Shown: in pieces, positions 5,695 to 21,349 of the stretch
Layout of the letters: the number at the start of each line of letters is the position of its first letter
How positions within the stretch are numbered: position 1 is the first letter of the stretch
Assembly (NCBI GenBank): GCA_001795455.1
Contig: MGPB01000037.1
Coordinates: 37,310-101,309 of the forward strand
DNA length: 64,000 nt
Direction: 5' to 3'
From: Curvibacter sp. GWA2_63_95
Lineage (GTDB): Bacteria > Pseudomonadota > Gammaproteobacteria > Burkholderiales > Burkholderiaceae_C
The notes under the pieces: model-generated
What the model saw: the letters and a program-made list of their open reading frames with translations, nothing else
What the model was told of the DNA's origin: nothing
The model's database searches: none
Position numbers and translations under genes: made by a program

Positions 5695-5767
5695 GGTGTG
5701 CTCGCTTTCAATGCGCCAGCCACAGGTCGCATCAAAAACCGGCACCCGCAAGACGGGACAGGCTTCT

Positions 5768-5850
5768 CACACTTCCTACGCTGGCATAACCCAGATCAGG
5801 TACATGGGGTATTTCTCAGTCCTGTGACGGACACCCCCGGTGGAAGTGTG
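5768..5850 (-). ncRNA. TPP riboswitch (THI element)
   Basis: minus strand CACACTTCC..CTGAGAAATACCCCATGTACCTGATCTGGGTTATGCCAGCGTAGGAAGTGTG; conserved CTGAGA, ACCTGATCTGG and GCCAGCGTAGG boxes; 9-bp P1 stem CACACTTCC/GGAAGTGTG. Confidence 0.96.
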
Positions 5851-8119: not shown

Positions 8120-8175
8120 AAAACTAGCCTATCGCCCATACAGAATGGACGATAGAAGCTATCTTTTATATAGCA
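8119..8175 (-). repeat. divergent copy of the dispersed ~50-bp repeat, between converging genes
   Basis: reverse complement GCTATATAAAAGATAGCTTCTATCGTCCATTCTGTATGGGCGATAGGCTAG resembles the family. Confidence 0.4.
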
Positions 8176-8981
8176 CTGGGAACGCGTATTCGCCCCTCAG
8201 GAATCACCAGCGGCGTCCCGGACACCGGGTCTTCGATGATCCGGCACGGCAAGTCAAACACCTGCTCCACCAGCGCCGCCGTGATGATCTCCTTCGGCGC
8301 GCCCTGGGCCACCAACTGGCCCTGGCGCAGCACGACCAAATGATCCGCATACCGGCAGGCGTGGTTCAGGTCGTGCAGCACGGCGACCAGGGTTCGGCCC
8401 TGGTGGCGGTTCAGGTCACGGAAGAGTTCCAGCAGGTCGATCTGGTGCGCCAGGTCCAGGTAGGTGGTGGGCTCGTCGAGCAGCAGCAACTGCGTGTCTT
8501 GCGCCAGCACCATGGCGACCCAGACGCGCTGGCGCTGGCCGCCGGACAGTTCGTCCACCAGCCGGTCGGCTAAGTCTTCGATAGCGGTGGCGCGCAAGGC
8601 CTGGGCGACGATGCGGTCGTCCTCGGCCGTCCAGCCGCCGAACAGGCTTTGGTGTGGATGCCGGCCGCGCGCCACCAGCTCCGCCACGCGTATGCCTTCG
8701 GGGGCGATGGCGGTTTGCGGCAGCAGACCCAAGCGGCGGGCGACTTCGCGCGTGGGGTAGCTGCCGATCAGCGCGCCGTCCAGAAAGACCTGGCCGGCTT
8801 GCGGTGTGCGTAGCCGCGCCAGGGCTTTGAGCAGGGTGGATTTGCCGCAGGCGTTCGGGCCGACGATGACGGTGAAGGCGCCGTCGGGAATCGCCACACT
8901 CAGGTGCTCGGCCACGCGGGTGTCGCCGTAGGCCAGGGTCAGGTTTTCGCCACGGAGGCGGGAGACGGTGGGTATGTACAT
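8166..8981 (-). CDS. iron-siderophore ABC transporter ATP-binding protein (FecE/FhuC family)
   Basis: [53 protein letters not shown]. Confidence 0.92.
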   Translation of the reverse strand: MYIPTVSRLRGENLTLAYGDTRVAEHLSVAIPDGAFTVIVGPNACGKSTLLKALARLRTPQAGQVFLDGALIGSYPTREVARRLGLLPQTAIAPEGIRVAELVARGRHPHQSLFGGWTAEDDRIVAQALRATAIEDLADRLVDELSGGQRQRVWVAMVLAQDTQLLLLDEPTTYLDLAHQIDLLELFRDLNRHQGRTLVAVLHDLNHACRYADHLVVLRQGQLVAQGAPKEIITAALVEQVFDLPCRIIEDPVSGTPLVIPEGRIRVPSAI

Positions 8982-8985
8982 GGGT

Positions 8986-10014
8986 TCAGAGGTCGTGGCT
9001 TCGCCATTCGCGGGCTAGTAAGTAAGTCAGGTACGCCCCACCCAGCGCGCTGGTGACCAGGCCTACGGGAATTTGGAAAGGCGCCAGCACCAGCCTTGCC
9101 AGCAGGTCGGCGCTAGCGCACAGCACCGCGCCCATCAGCGCGGCGGCCCACAGGCCGATGCCCGGCGCGCGGCACAGGCGGCGCGCGAGTTGTGGCGCGG
9201 CCAGAGCGATGAAGCCGATAGGGCCGGCGCAGGCGATGGCCAGCGCGGTCAGGCCTACGGCCACCAGGGTCAGATAGCTGTGGCTGCGACCCACATTCAG
9301 GCCCAGGCTGGTGGCGAGTTCGTCGCCCATCTCCAGCAGGCGCAGCCGCGGGCTGAGCAGCCAGGCCAGCGGCAGCAACAGGGCGCAGCCCAGACCCAGG
9401 CGCTGGGCCTGCAGCCAGCCACTGCCTTGCAGGCTGCCGTGCAGCCACATCTTGGCCTGCAGGGCCTGGTCCAGCTCGGCGCGGGTTAGCAGGAAGTCGT
9501 TGACCGAGGCCAGCATGGCCGCAACCGCCAGGCCGATCAGTACTAGGCGCTGCCCCTGCATGCCGCGCTGCAGGCTGAACAGATAGACCAGCGCCACCGT
9601 GGCCAGGCCGCCGACCAGCGCGCCCAGCGGCACGTTGAGTGCCTGGTCGCCGAGCCAGAGAATCATCACCAGTGCGCCGGTGGCCGAGCCTGTTGTCAGG
9701 CCGATGATGTCCGGGCTGGCCAGCGGGTTGCGCGACAGGCTTTGGAAGATGGCGCCGGCCGTGGCCAGTGCCGCGCCCGCGCCCAGGGCCACCAGGGCGC
9801 GCGGTAGGCGCAGGTCGATCAACACCATTCGGCCCATGTCCTCGCCACCGTCCCACAAGGTGGCGAAGAAGCGGCCCCAAGGGAGGTCGTAGCTGCCCAG
9901 GCGCAGGCCGAGCAGCGTCACGACCACGCCGACGGCCAACAGCACGCCAAGTACGATGCGGGTGCGGTGGTGCGCGAGTTCGGCCCAGATGCCGCTGTTC
10001 AGATTCAGGTTCAT
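8986..10014 (-). CDS. iron-siderophore ABC transporter permease (FecCD family)
   Basis: LGLRLGSYDLPWGRFF, RLPRALVALGAGAALATAGAIFQSLSRNPLASPDIIGLTTGS; ATG overlaps upstream stop. Confidence 0.92.
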   Translation of the reverse strand: MNLNLNSGIWAELAHHRTRIVLGVLLAVGVVVTLLGLRLGSYDLPWGRFFATLWDGGEDMGRMVLIDLRLPRALVALGAGAALATAGAIFQSLSRNPLASPDIIGLTTGSATGALVMILWLGDQALNVPLGALVGGLATVALVYLFSLQRGMQGQRLVLIGLAVAAMLASVNDFLLTRAELDQALQAKMWLHGSLQGSGWLQAQRLGLGCALLLPLAWLLSPRLRLLEMGDELATSLGLNVGRSHSYLTLVAVGLTALAIACAGPIGFIALAAPQLARRLCRAPGIGLWAAALMGAVLCASADLLARLVLAPFQIPVGLVTSALGGAYLTYLLAREWRSHDL

Positions 10015-11039
10015 ACCGCGCTCCCGCGCCGGCTGCGCTGCACCAGGGCCAGCAGCACCGGCGCGCCTATGAAGGCGGTGACGATGCCCGCCTCGATCTC
10101 GCTGGGCACGGCTATCAGCCGGCCCACGATGTCGCTGCCCAGCACCAGCACAGGGCCGGCGAGCAGACCGTAGGGCAGTATCCAGCGCCAGTGCGGCCCG
10201 ACCAGCAGGCGCACCGCATGCGGAATCACCAGGCCCACAAACGCAATCGGCCCGGCGGCGGCCGTGGCCGCGCCGCACAGCAGGGCGATGGCGACGAAGC
10301 TCCAGATGCGCACGGGCTTGAGCCGCAGGCCCAGCGCCTGGCCGAACTCGTCGCCCAGGGCGATGGCGTCGAGCGCACGCGCCTGCCACAGCGCAATCGC
10401 GCAGCCCACCAGCACCAGGGGCAGCATGGGCCACAGCACGTCGGCATTGCGGCCATCGAGCGCGCCGACCACCCAGAAGCGGTAGGCGTCGAAGGTGTTG
10501 CTGTCGAACAAGGTGATGATGCCGGTGCACGAGCCCAGGCTGGCGCTGATGGCCATGCCCGCCAGCAGCAGGCGCACGCGTTGCGCACTGGGCGCGGCGC
10601 CGCTGCTAAGCACATACACGCCAACGGCGGCCAGCATCGCGCCCAGCAATGCAAAGCCCACATAGCCGATGTAGCTGCCTATGCCCAGCACCGACATGGC
10701 CAGCACCACCGCCAGCGCCGCACCGGCATTGATGCCGAGCAGGCCGGGGTCGGCCAGCGGGTTGCGCGTCAGCGCCTGCATCAGACCGCCGGCGACTCCA
10801 AGTGCTGCACCCACGGCCAGGCCGAGCGCGGTGCGCGGCATGCGCATCTGCCAGACGATGGCGGACTCGACGCTGCCGTCCGGCTGCCACATCAGCTGCC
10901 AGAGCCTGGCCAACGGAATCGGGCGCGAGCCGAATGAAATGCTCGCCAGCACAAGCCCCAACAGGGCGGCCAGCAACAGCATCAGGCCCAGGCCCCGGGC
11001 GGCGCGGCGGGCCGGGGTGGTGGAGGGAAAGACGGTCAT
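10011..11039 (-). CDS. iron-siderophore ABC transporter permease (FecCD family)
   Basis: RMPRTALGLAVGAALGVAGGLMQALTRNPLADPGLLGINAGAALAVVLA; 4-bp overlaps with both neighbours. Confidence 0.92.
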   Translation of the reverse strand: MTVFPSTTPARRAARGLGLMLLLAALLGLVLASISFGSRPIPLARLWQLMWQPDGSVESAIVWQMRMPRTALGLAVGAALGVAGGLMQALTRNPLADPGLLGINAGAALAVVLAMSVLGIGSYIGYVGFALLGAMLAAVGVYVLSSGAAPSAQRVRLLLAGMAISASLGSCTGIITLFDSNTFDAYRFWVVGALDGRNADVLWPMLPLVLVGCAIALWQARALDAIALGDEFGQALGLRLKPVRIWSFVAIALLCGAATAAAGPIAFVGLVIPHAVRLLVGPHWRWILPYGLLAGPVLVLGSDIVGRLIAVPSEIEAGIVTAFIGAPVLLALVQRSRRGSAV

Positions 11040-12061
11040 GGATTGGGCAATGCAGTGGCTGCGGTACGCGCCAGCGTGCTCAGCACGGTGCGCGCGGCCA
11101 GCGGGCCGGCGTTCAGATAAAACGGGTCCAGCCCCACGCGCACCGCATGGCCTTGGGCTGCACCGCGCAGGCGCGGCCACAGGGGCGAGCCGGTCAGGCC
11201 GGGCAGGGACTTATCGCGCGCGGCGTAGAAGATCCAGTCGGCATCGGCCTGGTCGAGCAGCTCGCCGCTGATGTCTTGCGAATTGCCCGCGAAGCGCTGG
11301 CTGGGCGGGCGCTGCAGGCCGGCGTCTTCGGCGATGCTGCCGGCAAACGAGCGCACGCCCATGATGCGGTTGCGCACCGCATTGGCCTGCACGAAGGACA
11401 CGCTGGGGGCTGCATCGGCTTGCCAATGCTGGGCGAGGGCATTGGCATCGGCGTGGTACTGCTTCAGCCAGGCGCGGGCCTGCTCGCTGCGGCCCAGGGC
11501 GTCGGCCAGCAGCAGGAAGTCGATCTTCCAGTTCACGCCGTTGCCGCGCGTGACCACGGTGGGCGCAATGCGCTGGTACAGGGCGTGCATCTGTGGCGTC
11601 AACATGGCCTTGTTGACCAGGATCAGGTCGGGGCGCAGGGCGGCCAGCACCTCCAGGTCGGGCGCGCTGCGTACGCCAAGGTCGGCGGTACGGCGCATCT
11701 CGGCCTGGCGCGGGGCAAAGCCCTGGGCCAGGTAGTCGGCATACAGCCGGCCCTGGTCGTCGCGGGTGGTGCCCACAGGCACCAAGCCCAAGGTCAACAG
11801 GCCGTCGTTCTGCCCGGTGGACAGCACCGCCACGCGCAGCGGTGGCTGGGCCAACCGCGTGCTGCCCAGGTAGTGCGCCACGCTGCGCGGAAACACGCCA
11901 TCGGCCGCGCTGCTGCCCAGATCAGCGGCCAGCTTACGCGGGGCGGCGTGGGCTGGGAGGAAATCGGCTTTACCGACGTTGGTGGCTTTGTCTGCGGGGA
12001 GCGCCTGGAGTGCCAGCCCGCAGAGCAACAGGCCCAAGATGCGGCGGCGCGAGAAAGCCAT
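11036..12061 (-). CDS. iron-siderophore ABC transporter substrate-binding protein (FecB/FhuD-like)
   Basis: M at 12061 with signal peptide MAFSRRRILGLLLCGLALQALPA; PDLEVLAALRPDLILVNKAM. Confidence 0.88.
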   Translation of the reverse strand: MAFSRRRILGLLLCGLALQALPADKATNVGKADFLPAHAAPRKLAADLGSSAADGVFPRSVAHYLGSTRLAQPPLRVAVLSTGQNDGLLTLGLVPVGTTRDDQGRLYADYLAQGFAPRQAEMRRTADLGVRSAPDLEVLAALRPDLILVNKAMLTPQMHALYQRIAPTVVTRGNGVNWKIDFLLLADALGRSEQARAWLKQYHADANALAQHWQADAAPSVSFVQANAVRNRIMGVRSFAGSIAEDAGLQRPPSQRFAGNSQDISGELLDQADADWIFYAARDKSLPGLTGSPLWPRLRGAAQGHAVRVGLDPFYLNAGPLAARTVLSTLARTAATALPNP

Positions 12062-12370
12062 AGTCAAGTTTTTAAATGCAAACAGTAATAAGAATTGATT
12101 GTAATTGGGTTGCATTAACAGACTGTGTCTAAAGCATCCCCCTCCAGACAACCAAGTGAACCGCGCCATTGGCTGCTTGTAAGCTGGTGTAGAGCTTTCG
12201 TTCACAGCGCTTCCACAACCACTTGCTCTTATCCAGCGTCTCGGTGGGTCAAGCCGGTACACCCATCGCTGGGCGCATTCTTGTCTCAAAACCCAATGCA
12301 ACGATACGGATACAGGGGAATCAAAAGAGTCTTGAAATTTCCCAGAATGCCGCGTGAGCGAGCTCGGTGC

Positions 12371-12847
12371 CTACGCCCATAAAGCCGGCTTGGCCACCAT
12401 CAGGTAGAACACCGCGAGCATGGCGATGAAAGCGGGATAGCCCAATGCCTCCCAGCGGCGCGCGTACTGCCAATAGAGCGCGGGCAAGGGTTCTCCGGTC
12501 TCGTGCGCCACCTTCGCCATCCGGGCCATGCGCAACTGCAAGGCAACCACGGGTGTCCAGCAGGCGCCGGTGAACAGGTAGAGCGCTACCGCTGCGATCA
12601 GCCACGGCGTAGTCCAGGGGTAGCCCACCAAATAGGCCATCCACAGCCCCGTGATGGGCTGGATCACCACGGCGGGCGAAGTGAACCAGGTGTCGGCCCG
12701 CACCACCAGACGCGACACGACGGCCTGCGCGGCCACCACGCCGCTGCGGTTGGCATAGAAGAAGAAAAACGCGGTGCCAAACCCGGTACCCACCAGCACA
12801 ACACTGGACAGGATGTGCACCCACTTCAGGAATACATACAGGCTCAC
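12371..12847 (-). CDS. DUF2269-family integral membrane protein (GTG start)
   Basis: VSLYVFLKWVHILSSVVLVGTGFGTAFFFFYANRS...FTSPAVVIQPITGLWMAY; overlaps upstream stop by 4 bp. Confidence 0.75.
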   Translation of the reverse strand: MSLYVFLKWVHILSSVVLVGTGFGTAFFFFYANRSGVVAAQAVVSRLVVRADTWFTSPAVVIQPITGLWMAYLVGYPWTTPWLIAAVALYLFTGACWTPVVALQLRMARMAKVAHETGEPLPALYWQYARRWEALGYPAFIAMLAVFYLMVAKPALWA

Positions 12848-13209
12848 TGCGACCTCCGCATCAATATCCACAACACCACGGCAATGGGCACGTTCTTGGT
12901 CAAGGGCCCCAGCGGATGCAACCACAGCGCAGGCTGCATGAAAGTGGCCACCACGGTCATGCCCAGCATCACCAGCAGGGTCAGGCCGTAGACACGCCGT
13001 ACCGGCCACACCAGCAAGAGCAGTCCCAACACGGCATCCACGGCAGCCCCCGCCCACACCAGGAGATTGGCCAGGCGCACATCCGTCACACCGCTGGCCG
13101 CCAGCAGCATGCGGCTTTGGCCCTGCAACTCCTGCACGCTGACCACTGCGGTAGTCAACCACACAAAAATCAGGCTGTAACGCAGCCAACGCGACTCAGC
13201 GTGTCCCAT
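12844..13209 (-). CDS. DoxX-like family membrane protein
   Basis: 121 aa, four predicted TM segments, RYSLIFVWLTTAVVSVQELQGQSRMLLAASGV. Confidence 0.65.
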   Translation of the reverse strand: MGHAESRWLRYSLIFVWLTTAVVSVQELQGQSRMLLAASGVTDVRLANLLVWAGAAVDAVLGLLLLVWPVRRVYGLTLLVMLGMTVVATFMQPALWLHPLGPLTKNVPIAVVLWILMRRSQ

Positions 13210-13212
13210 GGC

Positions 13213-14331
13213 TCAGCCCTCGTCCACCACATCGCTCACCATGCCCCACTTGGCGAACTCGGGGGTGAATTCGCGCAGCGCATGCAGGCCCACGCAGGCG
13301 CGGGCACCAGCTTGCATGGACTCCCCTGCGGCAAGCCGGCGGGCCAGCAGAATGGCGGCCATGCAAGGGATCTCGGGGCCATGGTCCCGGTCGGCGGCGA
13401 TGTGCCAGGCACGCCGGACCGATACACCATCCGCGTTCACACCCGCCACGCGCACCACCATCCCCCCCAGCGCAGAGCCCAGCGGGTCAAACAGTTTGGC
13501 GCCTGCATTGAGCAACCCGGCCAACGAGGACGGATTCTTCAACAGCCCATGTTCCCGCAGCCACGCCAGAAACGCGAAGGCCCACTGCGACAGCCCCACC
13601 TCCAGCGCGGCGCGAAACACCATGCGGTCTTGCACCCGGTAGTGCGCGGGGAACAGCTCCAGATCCGGGATGTCGCACACGGCACCCAGCCGGGGTTTCA
13701 AGCGCTGAAACGCCACGCGCTGCGGACGGCTCCAACCCATCTGCGCCTGCCACTGGCCACCGTTCCACACCTGGATGGGAGCACCACAGTAACTCAGTAC
13801 CGCCGCCAACGTAGCCACTCCCCGTGGTGCGGTTTGGGCCGGGGCGATGCAGATATCGATGCTGTCGATGCGCTGCCAGCCACCGCACAGGGAATCCACC
13901 ACGGCAGACGACAAGGCCGGCACCGTGCTGGCACCCGTGATCGCAACCCGATTGGCCGCGACAAACGGGACCTGCATGGCGGAGGCGAAGTCACCCACAA
14001 AACGGCGGCCATCGGCCAGGTCGATGTAGTGCGCACCGGCCTCTGCACACGCCCGGGCCACCGCATAGTCTTGGCCTTGAAACGGGCCTGCGGTGTGGAT
14101 CAGCAGCTCCACCTGGTGCTTGCGCAAGGTCTGCGAGAAATTTGGACTCTGGCAATCCACCACCGCAGCGCTGGCACCCGTGCCATGGGCTTGGTCGAGT
14201 TCGGCAGCCAGCGCAGACGCCCGACCGGCATCACGCCCGGCCACCAGCAAGGCCACCGAACGGTCAGCCGCCAGCGCGCGGCAAATGCGTGCACCAAAAT
14301 TTCCATACCCACCCAACACCATCACTCTCAT
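13213..14331 (-). CDS. saccharopine dehydrogenase-like NAD(P)-binding oxidoreductase
   Basis: Rossmann MRVMVLGGYGNFGARICRALA; LLIHTAGPFQGQDYAVARACAEAGAHYIDLADGRRFV. Confidence 0.8.
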   Translation of the reverse strand: MRVMVLGGYGNFGARICRALAADRSVALLVAGRDAGRASALAAELDQAHGTGASAAVVDCQSPNFSQTLRKHQVELLIHTAGPFQGQDYAVARACAEAGAHYIDLADGRRFVGDFASAMQVPFVAANRVAITGASTVPALSSAVVDSLCGGWQRIDSIDICIAPAQTAPRGVATLAAVLSYCGAPIQVWNGGQWQAQMGWSRPQRVAFQRLKPRLGAVCDIPDLELFPAHYRVQDRMVFRAALEVGLSQWAFAFLAWLREHGLLKNPSSLAGLLNAGAKLFDPLGSALGGMVVRVAGVNADGVSVRRAWHIAADRDHGPEIPCMAAILLARRLAAGESMQAGARACVGLHALREFTPEFAKWGMVSDVVDEG

Positions 14332-15812
14332 GCAGGCATTCCCATAAATCCCAAATCCACAGGATAGTCGGCCCGCCCGGCGGCGGCGCCAAACTGCCGC
14401 AGGTTCGGCAAGATGCCGTTCAGCTCCAGAGGACCCACACCAAACCAGCGCGCCAGCGTGGCGGCGTACTGGTCCACCGAGGTGCTGGGCAGCAGGCGCC
14501 CCTGGCCGACGTGCCACTGGTCTTGTGGTGCGCCGGTGTTGCCCACGCTGACGGGCGGCGGTGCGCCATAGAAGGCGCGGCCTTTGACGGCGCCGCCCAC
14601 CACCAGATGGTGGCCACCCCAGCCGTGGTCGGAACCGTCGCCATTGGAGGTGAGCGTGCGGCCGAAGTCGGAGGCCGTAAACGCTGTCACGTTCTGCGCC
14701 ACACCCAGCTCCACGGTGGCGCGGTAAAACGCCGCCATGGCCTCGCTCACGCGCCCCATCAGCACGGGCTGCTGTGCAATCAGGTTGTCGTGCAGGTCAA
14801 AGCCACCCAGTGACACCATGAACACCTGGCGCTTGGCGCCCAACACATCGCGGCCCTGGATCAGGCGCGCCACCATCTTCAACTGGTCGGCCAGCGGGTT
14901 GTTGGTGGGGAACTCGGTCGTCAGCGGCGTAGCGCCCCCACTCTGGCTGCCGGCCAGCGCGGCGGCCACATGCACCTCGGCCTCACGCGAGCGTTGCATG
15001 ACACGTACGTATTCGTTTTCCAGTGGATGGGCGCTGGGCTCGGAGATCATTTCGGAGAGCAGGTTCTTCACGGCTCTGGAGCCGTAGACCGCGTTGTCGG
15101 TGGCCGCGCGTACACGCACCGCACCACCGGTGCTGACCTGGTACTGCAACGCCGAGTCACCCGACAGGAACACGGCATTGCCAGTGACCGACATGCAGGT
15201 AAACAAGGACTTGGCATTGCTGCGCAGCGCCAGATCCCCCAGATGCCCACCCCAACCCACGGTGGAGCCCTCGGGCGAGGACGACTGCCAGACGGACTGC
15301 TGGTCGTTGTGCGAAAACAGCTTGGGGGGCAGCGGGTAGGTCTTGCGGTCCGCGCTGTTGAATTGCGCACGTGTGAGCGGCACCACCAGCGGCCCGACAT
15401 TGAGCTGCACCGCGGCCTGACCCGTGTTGAACAGATCGGCCAATCCCGTCATGGCGGGGTGCAGCGCGTACTGCCGTCCTTCTGCCAGCGGCGTACCGGG
15501 CTGCAGCAGCGTGCGCTGCAGGTCAGCACGCGCCAGCGCAATGCCGCCACCGGCCTCGCCCACTCCGCCACGCACGGTGGCGTACTGGGCGTAGCTGGCG
15601 GGGTCGAAGGTGACCACGGTGTTGGCGTAATCGTTACCACCGTAGAGGAAGACACAGACCAGGGCTTTGTAGTCGGTGGCCGTGGCAGCTGCCGCGTCGC
15701 CCAGAGCAGCGAGGTTGAGCGCCGTAGGCAAGGCGGTGCCTGCCAAAGTGAGCTGGCCTGCACGTTGCAGGAAAGCGCGGCGGGTGTGGAGGTGCGGTTG
15801 GAGCAAGTGCAT
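14328..15812 (-). CDS. DUF1501 domain-containing protein, Tat-type signal
   Basis: HTRRAFLQRAGQLTLAG Tat-like motif; VFLYGGNDYANTVV; VSLGGFDLHDN; ASDFGRTLTSNGDGSDHGWGGHHLVVGGAVKG. Confidence 0.9.
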   Translation of the reverse strand: MHLLQPHLHTRRAFLQRAGQLTLAGTALPTALNLAALGDAAAATATDYKALVCVFLYGGNDYANTVVTFDPASYAQYATVRGGVGEAGGGIALARADLQRTLLQPGTPLAEGRQYALHPAMTGLADLFNTGQAAVQLNVGPLVVPLTRAQFNSADRKTYPLPPKLFSHNDQQSVWQSSSPEGSTVGWGGHLGDLALRSNAKSLFTCMSVTGNAVFLSGDSALQYQVSTGGAVRVRAATDNAVYGSRAVKNLLSEMISEPSAHPLENEYVRVMQRSREAEVHVAAALAGSQSGGATPLTTEFPTNNPLADQLKMVARLIQGRDVLGAKRQVFMVSLGGFDLHDNLIAQQPVLMGRVSEAMAAFYRATVELGVAQNVTAFTASDFGRTLTSNGDGSDHGWGGHHLVVGGAVKGRAFYGAPPPVSVGNTGAPQDQWHVGQGRLLPSTSVDQYAATLARWFGVGPLELNGILPNLRQFGAAAGRADYPVDLGFMGMPA

Positions 15813-15821
15813 GGTGGGCTC

Positions 15822-17621
15822 CTATTTCTGCACCAGGTACTGGGGCGCGGCCATGGTCAGCAGCACGGCGGCGGCCACACGGTCCAGACGTTTGTCGAGC
15901 GGACTGGTCGCGTTAAGCGGTGTGGCGTTCAAGGCGGTCACCATGCGGGCCTGCAGGGCCGCGGGCAGCTGGCCCGCGCACAACAACAGGTTCAGCCGCG
16001 CCACCAGCGCCTTCGCATCGGGTGCCAGTGCCAGTTCAGGCGTGTAGCGGGCCTGGATGTCGAAACCACGCTTGGGATTCCTGGAGTTGTTCACGTTGTG
16101 GGGCAAGTCGGGATCATTCACAAAAATGCCATTGCGCACCACACCTTGCAGGTAGTTGATGTAACCCGCCACGCTGCTCTCGGTGACGATCTGGAACTCG
16201 GGTGCCGATGCGCCGGCCGCAGCCATCTGGGTAGCGGGCGGCACATAACCGGGGCGGAAGAAGTTGAACACCGAAGGCGAGCGCAGCGGACTCTGGCCCA
16301 GTTGGGTCGCCGGATTGCTGAGGTCGCCGATCTTCCAGCTGCCCTGGGCCGAGGTGATGCCAAAGGTGCGGCCCCACTGCACCAGGCGCAGCATGGGCTC
16401 GCGCAGGCGGCCAAACTGCGGGTCGCGCAGCCCGGCAGGACTGCGCGCTTCGTCGTCGAGCAGGATGGCGGCGAACACCGCGCGCAAGTCGCCCCGCACG
16501 CCCCTGCCGTTGTCGGCAAAGGCAGCACTTACACGCGCCACGTAGGCCGGGCTAGGGTTGCTGGTGACCAGGCGCTGGATCATCTGTTTGCCAAAGAAAG
16601 GGCCTACATTGGGATGCAGAAACAAGGTGTCGAGCGCCTTCTTGAGTGCATCCGCACCCGGTGTGTTGGCCGCAATGCTGGTGCCCAGAAAGTGCACGGC
16701 CTGCTCCGAATGGCGATTGGCGGCAAACGCCATGCGTTGTTTGGCAAAGTTGGTATTGCCCACCTTGCGCTTGCCCTCAGGGTCCAGCACTACGGTCACG
16801 TTCTGCCGCTGGTCGAAGTCGTAACCGGTGAACACACGTGCCAGTTGCGTTACATCGTTTTGGCTATAGGTCTCCAGCCGCTGTCCATTGGTTCCGGTCT
16901 TCTCACTGCCATCGGCGTTGAGCTGCACCAGGCCGATGGTGAAGAGCTGCATGACTTCACGCGCATAGTTTTCATCGGGCACGCGGCCGGTGGCGGCGTT
17001 CTCTTTCTGGTTGCCCTTGGTGTTGAGGTAGTGGCCCATGGCGGGGTTCAGCGTCACCTCTTCCAGCAGCGTGCGGAAGTTGCCCAGCGCGTGGCGCGCC
17101 AGCGTGTCCCAGTAGTGCGCCAGGGCGTGGCTGCGCCAGGCAAAGTCCAGCCCCGTGAGCGAGACCACAAAAAACTCGGACAGTGCGAGCGTCAGCCGCT
17201 TGCGCACCGCGTCGGGTGCGGTCATGAGCTGGTTCCAGACCATGTAGTCGCCGGGGTAGAAATGGTCGAAGTAGCGTGTGGTGTTGTCAATCGCGCCATA
17301 GCCGCGCTCATTGAGCCAGTCCCAGCCAGTCTGGCCCTGGGGCGCGTCCAACTGCTGGGCCAGCCAGTCGGCATAGCTGTGTTGCTGCACGGCGGCGATC
17401 TCGGCGTCCGACGCCGAAAACTGCGCCTGCAACAAAAAGCGCGCGGCGTCTTCGGGCGTGTGGGCACGGCTGTACTGCTGGCCCGGGCGCTGCAACAACC
17501 GCCCCCCGGGTGTAGAACAGGCGGCCAGCAGGCCAGCCGCCCCGGCCAGCGCAGCACGCTGGACCCAGCGTTCCGCCACCGGGTCCGCAGCGGCGAGGGT
17601 GTCAGTGTCTTCATGCGTCAT
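15822..17621 (-). CDS. DUF1800 domain-containing protein, putative lipoprotein
   Basis: lipobox LLAAC near N-terminus; AARFLLQAQFSASDAEIAAV, LTLALSEFFVVS, NFRTLLEEVTLNPAMGHYLN, DENYAREVMQLFTIGL are DUF1800 motifs. Confidence 0.88.
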   Translation of the reverse strand: MTHEDTDTLAAADPVAERWVQRAALAGAAGLLAACSTPGGRLLQRPGQQYSRAHTPEDAARFLLQAQFSASDAEIAAVQQHSYADWLAQQLDAPQGQTGWDWLNERGYGAIDNTTRYFDHFYPGDYMVWNQLMTAPDAVRKRLTLALSEFFVVSLTGLDFAWRSHALAHYWDTLARHALGNFRTLLEEVTLNPAMGHYLNTKGNQKENAATGRVPDENYAREVMQLFTIGLVQLNADGSEKTGTNGQRLETYSQNDVTQLARVFTGYDFDQRQNVTVVLDPEGKRKVGNTNFAKQRMAFAANRHSEQAVHFLGTSIAANTPGADALKKALDTLFLHPNVGPFFGKQMIQRLVTSNPSPAYVARVSAAFADNGRGVRGDLRAVFAAILLDDEARSPAGLRDPQFGRLREPMLRLVQWGRTFGITSAQGSWKIGDLSNPATQLGQSPLRSPSVFNFFRPGYVPPATQMAAAGASAPEFQIVTESSVAGYINYLQGVVRNGIFVNDPDLPHNVNNSRNPKRGFDIQARYTPELALAPDAKALVARLNLLLCAGQLPAALQARMVTALNATPLNATSPLDKRLDRVAAAVLLTMAAPQYLVQK

Positions 17622-17703
17622 ACAGCAGTCCCCTGTGCAGCCGATGGCGGCCACTGCGCGCATGGTAACCACCGGCCAAGACACTTTGCGCTAGGCTAGG
17701 CCC

Positions 17704-20289
17704 ATGCTGCTACCTTTGCTCACCACTTTCTCCTGGCAGGAGCTGCGCCAGCACCCCTGGCGCAATGCGGCGGCCGTGGTGTCGGTGATGCTGGGGGTGG
17801 CCCTGGCGTTTGCAGTGCACCTGATCAACGCATCGGCGCTGGACGAGTTTTCGCAGGCCGTGCGTTCGGTGGGTGGCCAGCCCGACCTGGAACTGCGCAC
17901 CGCAGCTGGCAGCGCCAGCAGTGTGGACCTGGCTCTGTGGGGCCAGCTGCTGCAGCACCCCGACGTGGCGGTGGCGGCACCGGTACTGGAGCTCAGCACC
18001 TATGCCATCCACGCGGGCCAAAAAACCCTGCTGCGTGTGGTGGGCGTGGACGCGCTGCAAGTGGCCGCGGTGGCGCCTGACCTGTTGCCCCTGCCCGCTG
18101 CCAATGCCGACCGACTGGCCTTCTTCGCCCCCGACACGGTGTTTCTGAACCCGCTGGCGCGCCAGGCCTTGCCCGGTGCCACGGTGCAGTTGCAGCACGG
18201 CCTGGGCCTGCACACCCTGCAGGTAGCGGGCAGCGTGGCCGCGGGGGGTGCCCCGCTAGCGGTGATGGACATTGCCGCCGTGCAAAGCCTGTTTGGCCGC
18301 AGCGACCTGAGCCGTGTGGATGTGCGGCTGCGTGCGGGCGTGGACCGTGCCCAATTTGTGCGCGACGTCACAGAGGCCGCCGACTGGCCCGCCGGTGCCA
18401 CGCTGCGCGCGCCCGGCGACGCGGTGGAACGCATCAGCAACCTGTCACGCGCCTACCGCGTGAACCTGACCGTGCTGGCGCTGGTGGCACTGTTCACCGG
18501 GGGCTTTCTGGTGTTCTCGGTGCTGGCCCTCAGCGTGGCGCGGCGGGCGCAGCAGTTTGCGCTGTTGGGCGTGCTGGGCCTGACCGGCCGGCAACGGTTG
18601 CAGCTGGTGCTGCTGGAAGCCGCGGCGCTGGGCAGCGTGGGCAGCTTGCTGGGCCTGGCGCTGGGCAGCGCGTTGGCCGCACTTGCGCTGCGCCTGCTGG
18701 GCGGTGACCTGGGGGGTGGTTTTTTTGCGGGCAGCACCCCTGCTTTGCAATGGAGCGGTGCGGCCGCGCTGGTGTTTGGCCTGCTGGGCGTGGCCGCCGC
18801 GCTGGTAGGCGCCTGGGCACCGGCCCGGCTGGCGCAGCAGCTGCCCCCGGCGCAAACGCTCAAGGGCCTGGGCGCGCCGGATGCGAGCCACCACCGGGCC
18901 TGGCTGGGCGCGGCGCTGCTGGTGGCGGGTGGCCTGCTGGCGCTGCTGCCCCCGGTGTGGGAGATCCCGCTGGCGGCCTACCTGAGCGTGGCGTGTTTGC
19001 TGCTGGGTGGCATCACCGCGCTGCCCGCCGCCGTGGGCTGGGTGCTGGACGGGGTGGCCCCCTTCGTGGCGCGCCGTGCCCTGCCGCTGCTGGCGGTGGA
19101 GCGTGCGCGCCGAGTGCGCGAAAGTGCGGCGGTGGCGGTGAGTGGTGTGGTGGCATCGCTGAGCCTAGCGGTGGCACTGACCGTGATGGTGGCAAGCTTT
19201 CGCACCTCGGTGACCGACTGGCTGGATGTGGTGCTGCCCGCCGCCTTGTATGTGCGCACCGGCACCAGCGGCAGTACCACCGAGGCAGCCTACTTTGACC
19301 CCGCTTTCGTGCAGGGTGCGGCGCAGGTGCCGGGCGTGGAGCGTTTGAGCACGCAGCGCACGCTGTCCCTCACGCTGGACCCGGCCCAACCCGCCATTGC
19401 GTTGCTGGTGCGCCCGCTGCGCGACGCCCAAACGGGCGCACTGAACCTGCCCTCGGTGGGCAACCCGGTGCCAGTGCCTGCCGGGCGCGTGGGTGTGTAC
19501 GTGAGCGAGGCCATGCTGGACCTGTATGCGGCGCGACTGGGACGGGATTTGCCTGCACTTTCAGCATCATTTAGGCCTCCAGCCCCCGTGGAATCTGCGC
19601 AAACAGCTATCTTTTTTGTAGCAGGCGTGTGGCGCGACTATGCCCGCCAGTTTGGCACCGTGGCCATGGACCCGGCCGACTTTGCACGCTACAGCCGCGA
19701 CACGCGGGTCAACGACATCGCCTTCTGGTTGCACCCGGAGGCGGATGTGCCGCAGGTACAAGAACAATTGCGCGCGCTGGCCAACCAACTGGCCCACACA
19801 CCCGATGGTGCGGCGGGCAACTTGCTGGAGTTTGGCTCCGCCCGCGAGATTCGCGCCACCAGCCTGAAGATTTTTGACCGCAGCTTTGCCGTGACCTACT
19901 GGCTGCAGGCGGTGGCCATTGGCATTGGCCTGTTTGGCGTAGCGGCCAGCTTCAGTGCGCAGGTGCTGGCGCGGCGCAAGGAGTTTGGCCTGTTGGTGCA
20001 CCTGGGGCTCACGCGGCGGCAAATCCTGCGCGTGGTGGCGCTGGAGGGCGCGGCCTGGACTGCGCTGGGTGCGTTGGCCGGCGTGGCGCTGGGCCTGGCG
20101 GTGGCCGTGGTGCTGGTGCATGTGGTGAACCCGCAGAGCTTCCACTGGACCATGGAACTGGCCCTACCCTGGGGCCGGCTGGCGGCGCTGGCGGCCGCTG
20201 TGGTGGTGGCCGGAACAACAACGGCCTGGCTGTCAGGCCAGGCCGCTGCGGGGCGCGATGCAGTGATGGCGGTGAAAGAGGACTGGTAA
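17704..20289 (+). CDS. FtsX-like ABC transporter permease (861 aa)
   Basis: WRNAAAVVSVMLGVALAFAVHLINASALDEF; two FtsX-type TM modules; C-terminal QVLARRKEFGLLVHLGLTRRQILRVVALEG. Confidence 0.9.
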   Translation: MLLPLLTTFSWQELRQHPWRNAAAVVSVMLGVALAFAVHLINASALDEFSQAVRSVGGQPDLELRTAAGSASSVDLALWGQLLQHPDVAVAAPVLELSTYAIHAGQKTLLRVVGVDALQVAAVAPDLLPLPAANADRLAFFAPDTVFLNPLARQALPGATVQLQHGLGLHTLQVAGSVAAGGAPLAVMDIAAVQSLFGRSDLSRVDVRLRAGVDRAQFVRDVTEAADWPAGATLRAPGDAVERISNLSRAYRVNLTVLALVALFTGGFLVFSVLALSVARRAQQFALLGVLGLTGRQRLQLVLLEAAALGSVGSLLGLALGSALAALALRLLGGDLGGGFFAGSTPALQWSGAAALVFGLLGVAAALVGAWAPARLAQQLPPAQTLKGLGAPDASHHRAWLGAALLVAGGLLALLPPVWEIPLAAYLSVACLLLGGITALPAAVGWVLDGVAPFVARRALPLLAVERARRVRESAAVAVSGVVASLSLAVALTVMVASFRTSVTDWLDVVLPAALYVRTGTSGSTTEAAYFDPAFVQGAAQVPGVERLSTQRTLSLTLDPAQPAIALLVRPLRDAQTGALNLPSVGNPVPVPAGRVGVYVSEAMLDLYAARLGRDLPALSASFRPPAPVESAQTAIFFVAGVWRDYARQFGTVAMDPADFARYSRDTRVNDIAFWLHPEADVPQVQEQLRALANQLAHTPDGAAGNLLEFGSAREIRATSLKIFDRSFAVTYWLQAVAIGIGLFGVAASFSAQVLARRKEFGLLVHLGLTRRQILRVVALEGAAWTALGALAGVALGLAVAVVLVHVVNPQSFHWTMELALPWGRLAALAAAVVVAGTTTAWLSGQAAAGRDAVMAVKEDW
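19565..19622 (-). repeat. dispersed repeat, in-frame copy inside the FtsX-like gene
   Basis: reverse complement GCTACAAAAAAGATAGCTGTTTGCGCAGATTCCACGGGGGCTGGAGGCC. Confidence 0.75.
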
Positions 20290-20317: not shown

Positions 20318-21349
20318 TTATTTCTTGGCGCGGATCTTGACCAGCTCGGCCTGCGCTTCGTTCCACAGGTCCATGCCAATGTCGGCACCGATCTGGGCGT
20401 ACACGCGGGTCAGCTTGTCACGCATGCGGGCGGACTCGGCGGGCGACAGCTCATTCACCTGCATGCCCTTGGCCTTCAAGTCGGCAACGGCCCGGGAGGC
20501 TTCGTCGCGGGTGTCCTTGCGTTCAAAGTCGCGGCTCAGCTTGGCGGCGTCGCTGAGGATCTTTTGTTCGTCCTTGGACAGCTGGTCCCACCATTTCTTG
20601 CTGACCATCACGATCCAGGGGCTGTACACGTGGTTGGTCACCGTCATGTACTTTTGCACTTCGTAGAACTTGCTCGACAGGATGGTGTTGAAGGGGTTTT
20701 CCTGGCCGTCCACGGTGTTGGTTTCCAGCGCGCTGAACAACTCAGAAAACGCCATGGGCACGGCGTTGGCACCCAGGGTCTTGAAGCTGTTGAGGAACAC
20801 ATTGTTTTGCATCACCCGCAGCTTGATGCCGTCCAGGTCTTCCACCTTGTTGATGGCGCGCTTGCTGTTGGTCAGGTTGCGAAAACCGTTCTCCCAGTAG
20901 GCCAGGCCCACCAGGCCTTTTTCCTGCAGCTTGGCGCGGATTTTGTCGCCAATGGGGCCGTCCAGCAGCGCATCGGCTTCCTTGGCGTTGCTGATCAAAA
21001 AGGGCGTATCCCACAGCGCCATTTCCTTGGTGATGCCGACCAGCGTGGCCGTCGACCCGACCATCATTTCCTGCGCGCCGCCAATCAGCGAGTTCTGCAT
21101 CTGCACATCGGGACCCAGTGCGGAGGCACCAATCGTGCGCACCTTCATCTTGCCGCCCGAAGCCTTTTCCACCGCCTCGGCAAACACCTTGGACGCACGG
21201 CCCTGGTTGCTTTGCTCGTTGAGGCCATAGCCAAAACGGATCAGGCGCGGTTTGATGTCTTGCGCCAGCGCGGGCAAGGCAGCGCTGAACACGGCGGCAC
21301 CGGCCACGGCCAGCACGGCGCGGCGGATCAGGGTGGTGGAAGCTTTCAT
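20318..21349 (-). CDS. TRAP transporter substrate-binding protein (DctP)
   Basis: IRFGYGLNEQSNQGRASKVFAEAVEKASGGKMKVRTIG; DLDGIKLRVMQNNVFLNSFKTLGANAVPMAFSELFSALE. Confidence 0.93.
   Translation of the reverse strand: MKASTTLIRRAVLAVAGAAVFSAALPALAQDIKPRLIRFGYGLNEQSNQGRASKVFAEAVEKASGGKMKVRTIGASALGPDVQMQNSLIGGAQEMMVGSTATLVGITKEMALWDTPFLISNAKEADALLDGPIGDKIRAKLQEKGLVGLAYWENGFRNLTNSKRAINKVEDLDGIKLRVMQNNVFLNSFKTLGANAVPMAFSELFSALETNTVDGQENPFNTILSSKFYEVQKYMTVTNHVYSPWIVMVSKKWWDQLSKDEQKILSDAAKLSRDFERKDTRDEASRAVADLKAKGMQVNELSPAESARMRDKLTRVYAQIGADIGMDLWNEAQAELVKIRAKK

Follow-up and report, generated by a model that had tools for sequence, protein, structure and literature searches.

A probable composite of two separately conserved gene modules, DUF1800-DUF1501 and Rossmann/DoxX_3/DUF2269, in a small Rhodoferax sub-lineage

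The 64,000-nucleotide stretch of contig MGPB01000037.1 (Curvibacter sp. GWA2_63_95) analysed here, called the window below, harbours five consecutive genes on the minus strand, which encode a DUF1800 protein, a DUF1501 protein, a Rossmann oxidoreductase with a saccharopine-dehydrogenase-like NADP domain, and the membrane proteins DoxX_3 and DUF2269 (Table 1). A previous interpretation made from the DNA letters (the sequence-only reading) had placed the five genes here and suggested that they belong to one pathway. Their position and orientation were verified by checking the coordinates directly, and the proposed families were all recovered by Pfam matches (PF08811, PF07394, PF03435, PF13781 and PF10027). 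The minimal or negative spacing was also measured: DUF1800 and DUF1501 are separated by 9 nucleotides, DUF1501 and the oxidoreductase gene overlap by 4 nucleotides (ATGA), a gap of 3 nucleotides precedes DoxX_3, and DoxX_3 and DUF2269 again share 4 nucleotides (GTGA). Because their protein families occur across many genera, the five open reading frames can be regarded as real genes. We are nevertheless fairly confident that the locus is no single five-part system; it is likely composed of two separately conserved modules, DUF1800-DUF1501 (module A) and oxidoreductase/DoxX_3/DUF2269 (module B), which are joined only in one small sub-lineage of the freshwater bacterium Rhodoferax.

The neighbourhood of the oxidoreductase gene was inspected at 86 loci (80 from genome contigs and six from the family) and that of DUF2269 at 60 further loci (40 from a class-wide sample and 20 from the family); since some contigs of the latter end close to DUF2269, the partner counts are lower bounds. 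DUF1800-DUF1501 lay upstream of the oxidoreductase at only two of the 86 loci, L040 and L041, both from Rhodoferax, and neither DUF1800 nor DUF1501 was found near DUF2269 at any of the 60. These data do not support a pathway of five genes, and they revealed the routine separation of the pair from the other three genes that the sequence-only reading had itself named as speaking against its proposal. The members of module B were met together far more often: DUF2269 was within reach of the oxidoreductase at 53 of the 86 loci, DoxX_3 at 42, and both at 40. At least 50 of the 60 DUF2269 loci contained a Rossmann oxidoreductase (44 epimerase-like or similar to short-chain dehydrogenases/reductases (SDR), seven saccharopine-dehydrogenase-like, one locus having both), the other partners being DoxX_3 (38), a MarR-type regulator (17) and a DCC1-like protein (10). 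DUF1501 in turn adjoined DUF1800 at 23 of 23 DUF1800 loci examined, and the view of the two as a recurring pair was thus upheld. Among 121 genomes of the family, DUF1800 was detected in 84, DUF1501 in 93 and DUF2269 in 28; the two gene sets were close by coordinates only in the window genome and in genome G004. Within the genus (61 genomes), ten possessed an orthologue of the oxidoreductase and 46 possessed DUF1800, but nowhere except in the window genome and G170 did the two stand side by side.

How the modules may have come together is suggested by sites that lack the pair. In six relatives (L042, L043, L046, L048, L049 and L202) the gene of an FtsX-type permease is divergent from, and directly adjoins, the oxidoreductase gene, with roughly 40-120 nucleotides between them; close relatives of this kind have the pair at another place, as a rule behind pyrF. 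By eye, a CTATAGT motif can be read ahead of the oxidoreductase gene at five of these six sites but not at the window junction. In L042, L048, L049 and L202, DoxX_3 and DUF2269 come after the oxidoreductase gene, and next to them is the iron-type binding protein that also adjoins the unit in the window; L043 and L046 are devoid of DoxX_3 and DUF2269, the binding protein coming right after the oxidoreductase, and therefore the rest of the cassette has also been lost in places. The window, L040 and L041 contain DUF1800 and DUF1501 exactly in the gap between permease and oxidoreductase; the closest oxidoreductase loci belong to Rhodoferax sp. TS-BS-61-7 (84% identity) and TH121 (79% identity), which places the window genome in Rhodoferax or in its immediate vicinity. 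In the window the private upstream region of the oxidoreductase is replaced, and the stop codon of DUF1501 overlaps the oxidoreductase start. The comparison of empty and filled sites is direct evidence for a junction that formed once in this sub-lineage. We propose that module A, a co-inherited exported pair, was inserted precisely between the two genes, by which the overlap would have arisen and module B would have lost its own upstream region, since the empty sites still show the oxidoreductase with such a region. Modules A and B are probably co-transcribed in this lineage, for which a shared pathway is not required.

Table 1. Position of the five genes and of the adjoining features in the window
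Feature	Position	Strand	Size or basis	Pfam match
DUF1800 protein, predicted lipoprotein (module A)	15822..17621	(-)	599 aa from ATG 17621	PF08811, E 2e-89, 300.9 bits
DUF1501 protein with Tat signal (module A)	14328..15812	(-)	494 aa	PF07394, E 5e-32, 111.9 bits
Rossmann oxidoreductase, saccharopine-dehydrogenase-like NADP domain (module B)	13213..14331	(-)	372 aa	PF03435 (Sacchrp_dh_NADP), E 2e-11
DoxX_3 membrane protein (module B)	12844..13209	(-)	121 aa	PF13781, E 2e-19
DUF2269 four-helix membrane protein (module B)	12371..12847	(-)	158 aa	PF10027, E 2e-58
Intergenic region between divergent FtsX-type permease and DUF1800 genes, presumed promoter region of the five-gene unit	17622..17703	none	sequence; without sigma-70 consensus match	
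FtsX/MacB-type ABC permease, constant left neighbour of the insertion site among relatives	17704..20289	(+)		PF02687, PF12704
Periplasmic binding protein of iron-siderophore-type ABC cluster, conserved right flank in Rhodoferax	11036..12067	(-)		PF01497
FecCD permeases of iron-siderophore-type ABC cluster	10011-11180 and 8986-10008	(-)		PF01032
ATPase of iron-siderophore-type ABC cluster	8166-8981	(-)		PF00005
aa, amino acids; ABC, ATP-binding cassette; Tat, twin-arginine translocation.

Downstream of the five-gene unit, the iron-siderophore-type ABC cluster occupies positions 8166-12067 (-), an order that is kept in Rhodoferax relatives. A scan of positions 11800-18000 yielded neither a sigma-70-like promoter nor an excess of terminator-like sites, results which bear neither way on a single transcript, and no RNA element was found within the five-gene locus. 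Farther away, the window contains a thiamine pyrophosphate (TPP) riboswitch at 5755-5848 (-) with 64.4 bits and, past the permease gene, a DctP-type extracellular solute-binding protein at 20318-21349 (-).

Rhodoferax and its near relatives mostly have the pair within the gene order tsaB-rimI-ung-pyrF-DUF1800-DUF1501 (gene names read from the sequences). The window genome also possesses a pair there (L039), which shares about 62% (DUF1800) and 67% (DUF1501) identity with the copy in the window. A tree of 62 rows united the window copy, L040/L170 and L041 in one clade on a long branch (support 100/100), away from L039, which grouped with the resident Rhodoferax copies. A recent duplication of the resident pair at the pyrF site was ruled out by the identities and the tree. 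Given the low identity to L039 and the separate clade, the inserted pair is either a paralogue of old date or was acquired from genomes beyond those sampled. DUF1800-DUF1501 has been described as an operon without known function whose two genes are transferred jointly, also next to genes of chitin synthases (PMC5122149). The copy in the window resembles that one in the adjoining of the same two families, in the Tat motif of DUF1501 and in being inherited and transferred as a unit, but no chitin synthase was seen beside it, and it is joined to the beginning of a redox cassette. Going beyond the two-module interpretation, yet compatible with it, is the view of the pair as a self-contained mobile cassette that would settle before unrelated operons and use their chromosomal context, its neighbours being uninformative on function. 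We hold the chances of this to be about even: at least two insertion contexts in Rhodoferax (the pyrF site and the window site), further unrelated contexts in the family, multiple paralogous pairs per genome and the reported joint transfer with chitin synthase genes agree with it, whereas neither an integrase nor a composition anomaly was noted beside the pair, and at the pyrF site the pair has long been resident in many genomes.

Several observations weigh against the separation into two modules as proposed. Module B is not obligate, because both DoxX_3 and DUF2269 are out of reach at 31 of the 86 oxidoreductase loci. In the unrelated genome G004 (L199, 5701-11685) a distant DUF1800-DUF1501 pair, whose DUF1800 is of a different subfamily, is located directly upstream of MarR/DCC1-like/epimerase/DoxX_3/DUF2269. 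L040 and L041 have retained the tight overlap. The fused arrangement is thus a persistent one, and selection may have linked the modules inside the clade of these two and the window. Guanine-cytosine (GC) content, overall and at third codon positions (GC3), is the same in the pair as in its neighbours and gives no sign of recent transfer; composition does not decide between an old paralogue and an outside acquisition. Finally, our confidence covers the two-module claim, and the functional steps suggested below for A and B derive from family resemblance alone. Among considerably more than a hundred loci, L199 is a single additional case, slightly above chance (fewer than 0.1 expected by a rough estimate) and not enough to argue for one system.

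The overlapping same-strand genes, their conservation in L040 and L041 and the second, independent juxtaposition in L199 are also what could be cited for one pathway of five, in which the two exported products would work with two redox proteins in the membrane and an oxidoreductase in the cytosol as a trans-envelope system for redox reactions or envelope modification. We consider this improbable in view of the neighbourhood counts, the empty sites within the same genus, the many genomes (the majority) that have one module without the other, and L201, which harbours the same MarR/DCC1-like/epimerase/DoxX_3/DUF2269 cassette as L199 without the pair.

The two members of module A, which are adjacent, on the same strand and both above the curated Pfam cut-offs, carry export signals, as had been noticed before. 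An LLAAC lipobox is present in the DUF1800 translation, whose n-region is long and acidic when read from the ATG at 17621; an in-frame GTG near 17579 is a possible alternative start with a more typical lipoprotein signal, the exact start being unsure. DUF1501 exhibits the Tat motif TRRAFLQ, and its arginine pair R11 R12 does not vary among 20 DUF1501 homologues. The same homologues disclosed further invariant residues (N60-D61, D339-x-H341, D382, D395-H396 and H402), an Asp/His set that would agree with the metal ligands of enzymes of the alkaline phosphatase type. A profile search of PDB sequences gave no solved-structure match for DUF1501 and no match for DUF1800, DUF1501 had no Pfam match to the alkaline phosphatase superfamily, and a PDB structure search with the AlphaFold model of DUF1800 (mean predicted local distance difference test (pLDDT) 80) revealed no meaningful fold match. 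Tentatively, DUF1501 may be a Tat-exported, metal-dependent hydrolase of the alkaline-phosphatase type that would work with the DUF1800 lipoprotein in the periplasm.

Module B appears to be an older, widely recurring cassette. Constant in it is the membrane protein DUF2269, combined with DoxX_3 and a Rossmann enzyme that uses NAD(P). The type of this enzyme is interchangeable: an SDR resembling epimerases and 3-beta-hydroxysteroid dehydrogenases (3-beta-HSD) is present at most DUF2269 loci and the saccharopine-dehydrogenase-like type of the window at some. In other genomes a MarR-family regulator, a DCC1-like thiol-disulfide oxidoreductase, an SRPBCC protein (polyketide cyclase/lipid transport) and DUF4166 accompany the cassette. 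The SRPBCC gene, which resides between the oxidoreductase gene and DoxX_3 in several relatives (L049, 10118-10624 (+); L202, 10396-10884 (+)), is absent from the window locus and was not found elsewhere in the window genome by a search performed without a positive control. From the combination of module B with these accessories we infer redox chemistry on a lipophilic compound. The cytosolic NAD(P)-dependent enzyme would exchange substrate or reducing equivalents with DoxX_3 and DUF2269, whose target would be a lipophilic substrate or the quinone pool; we put this mechanism forward with reservation, and the DCC1-like and SRPBCC accessories fit it. Of the sequence-only reading, a recurring and probably redox association of these three genes is supported, and their tie to DUF1800-DUF1501 in one pathway is not.

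The oxidoreductase matched PF03435 with 44.6 bits (cut-off 25.1), and among solved structures it came closest to carboxyspermidine dehydrogenase (8deb, E 2e-15), the match spanning the first 237 positions; no Pfam domain beyond the NADP domain was detected at E 0.001, nor a C-terminal saccharopine dehydrogenase domain. That it is a true saccharopine or carboxyspermidine dehydrogenase and the cassette part of lysine or polyamine metabolism, as these two matches might indicate, is very improbable, given that its neighbours are DoxX_3 and DUF2269 with no lysine or polyamine genes noted adjoining it, that no Pfam match extends past the NADP domain, and that the epimerase/3-beta-HSD-like SDR replaces it at most DUF2269 loci, so that the cassette depends on the presence of a Rossmann enzyme and not on this particular substrate. 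DoxX_3 is comparable to the DoxX/DoxDA thiosulfate:quinone oxidoreductase and the DoxX-SodA-SseA complex as a small multi-helix membrane protein of DoxX type adjoining redox partners. It differs from them in matching DoxX_3 (PF13781) and in having the Rossmann oxidoreductase and DUF2269 as partners; no DoxA, SodA or SseA was noted in the neighbourhoods. A profile search of PDB sequences gave no match for DoxX_3. A relation of DUF2269 to DoxX_3 was discarded after comparison of the two, as was an anti-phage defence system, since none of the five proteins matched a PADLOC model.

The AlphaFold model of DUF2269 (pLDDT 96) consists of four long helices; a structure search returned generic four-helix bundles only, none at E <= 0.001, and a profile search of PDB sequences gave no match. 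Like the protoporphyrinogen oxidase HemJ (UPF0093, PF03653), DUF2269 is a four-helix membrane protein of about 150 residues with a Lys before a C-terminal Pro, and the two profiles could be weakly aligned end to end over 139 columns (score 24.2 versus a maximum of 23.2 in 40 local shuffles; hhalign probability 8%). The same columns held the invariant His of helix 1, one Trp in each of helices 3 and 4, and the last Lys, these too being invariant. H11 is conserved in 53 of 53 and K153 in 48 of 53 DUF2269 members, the aligned H11 and K143 of HemJ being invariant. In contrast, other invariant residues of HemJ (such as Arg27, His87 and Glu127) are not invariant in DUF2269, PF03653 matched one of the 53 members below its cut-off (E 0.015), and the window genome has its own HemJ. 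The resemblance to this enzyme of haem synthesis is thus weak, if apparently full-length, and serves as a lead only, without assignment to the family. A distant link of DUF2269 to the membrane domain of the urate oxidase PuuD (E 0.15) has been reported (PMC4562309). The Trp/His of helix 1 align with that domain (PF06181), but only 28 columns do so, and the membrane domain of PuuD is larger and accompanied by a cytochrome c domain. It is conceivable, though rather unlikely in this specific form, that the Rossmann/DoxX_3/DUF2269 cassette with MarR, DCC1-like, SRPBCC and DUF4166 forms a proteobacterial membrane redox system not described before, where DUF2269, as a HemJ-like haem-b protein, would shuttle electrons between the quinone pool and a lipophilic substrate.

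One operon inserted before another can produce very tightly spaced genes, including a start/stop overlap of 4 nucleotides, and to deduce a joint function of the five genes from such spacing was tempting but wrong. The DUF1800-DUF1501 unit is already known (PMC5122149) and the Rossmann/DoxX_3/DUF2269 set recurs, the locus being a lineage-specific composite of both. The conserved part, the Rossmann/DoxX_3/DUF2269 cassette, is the cleaner target and worth following, with haem b as a testable hypothesis for DUF2269.

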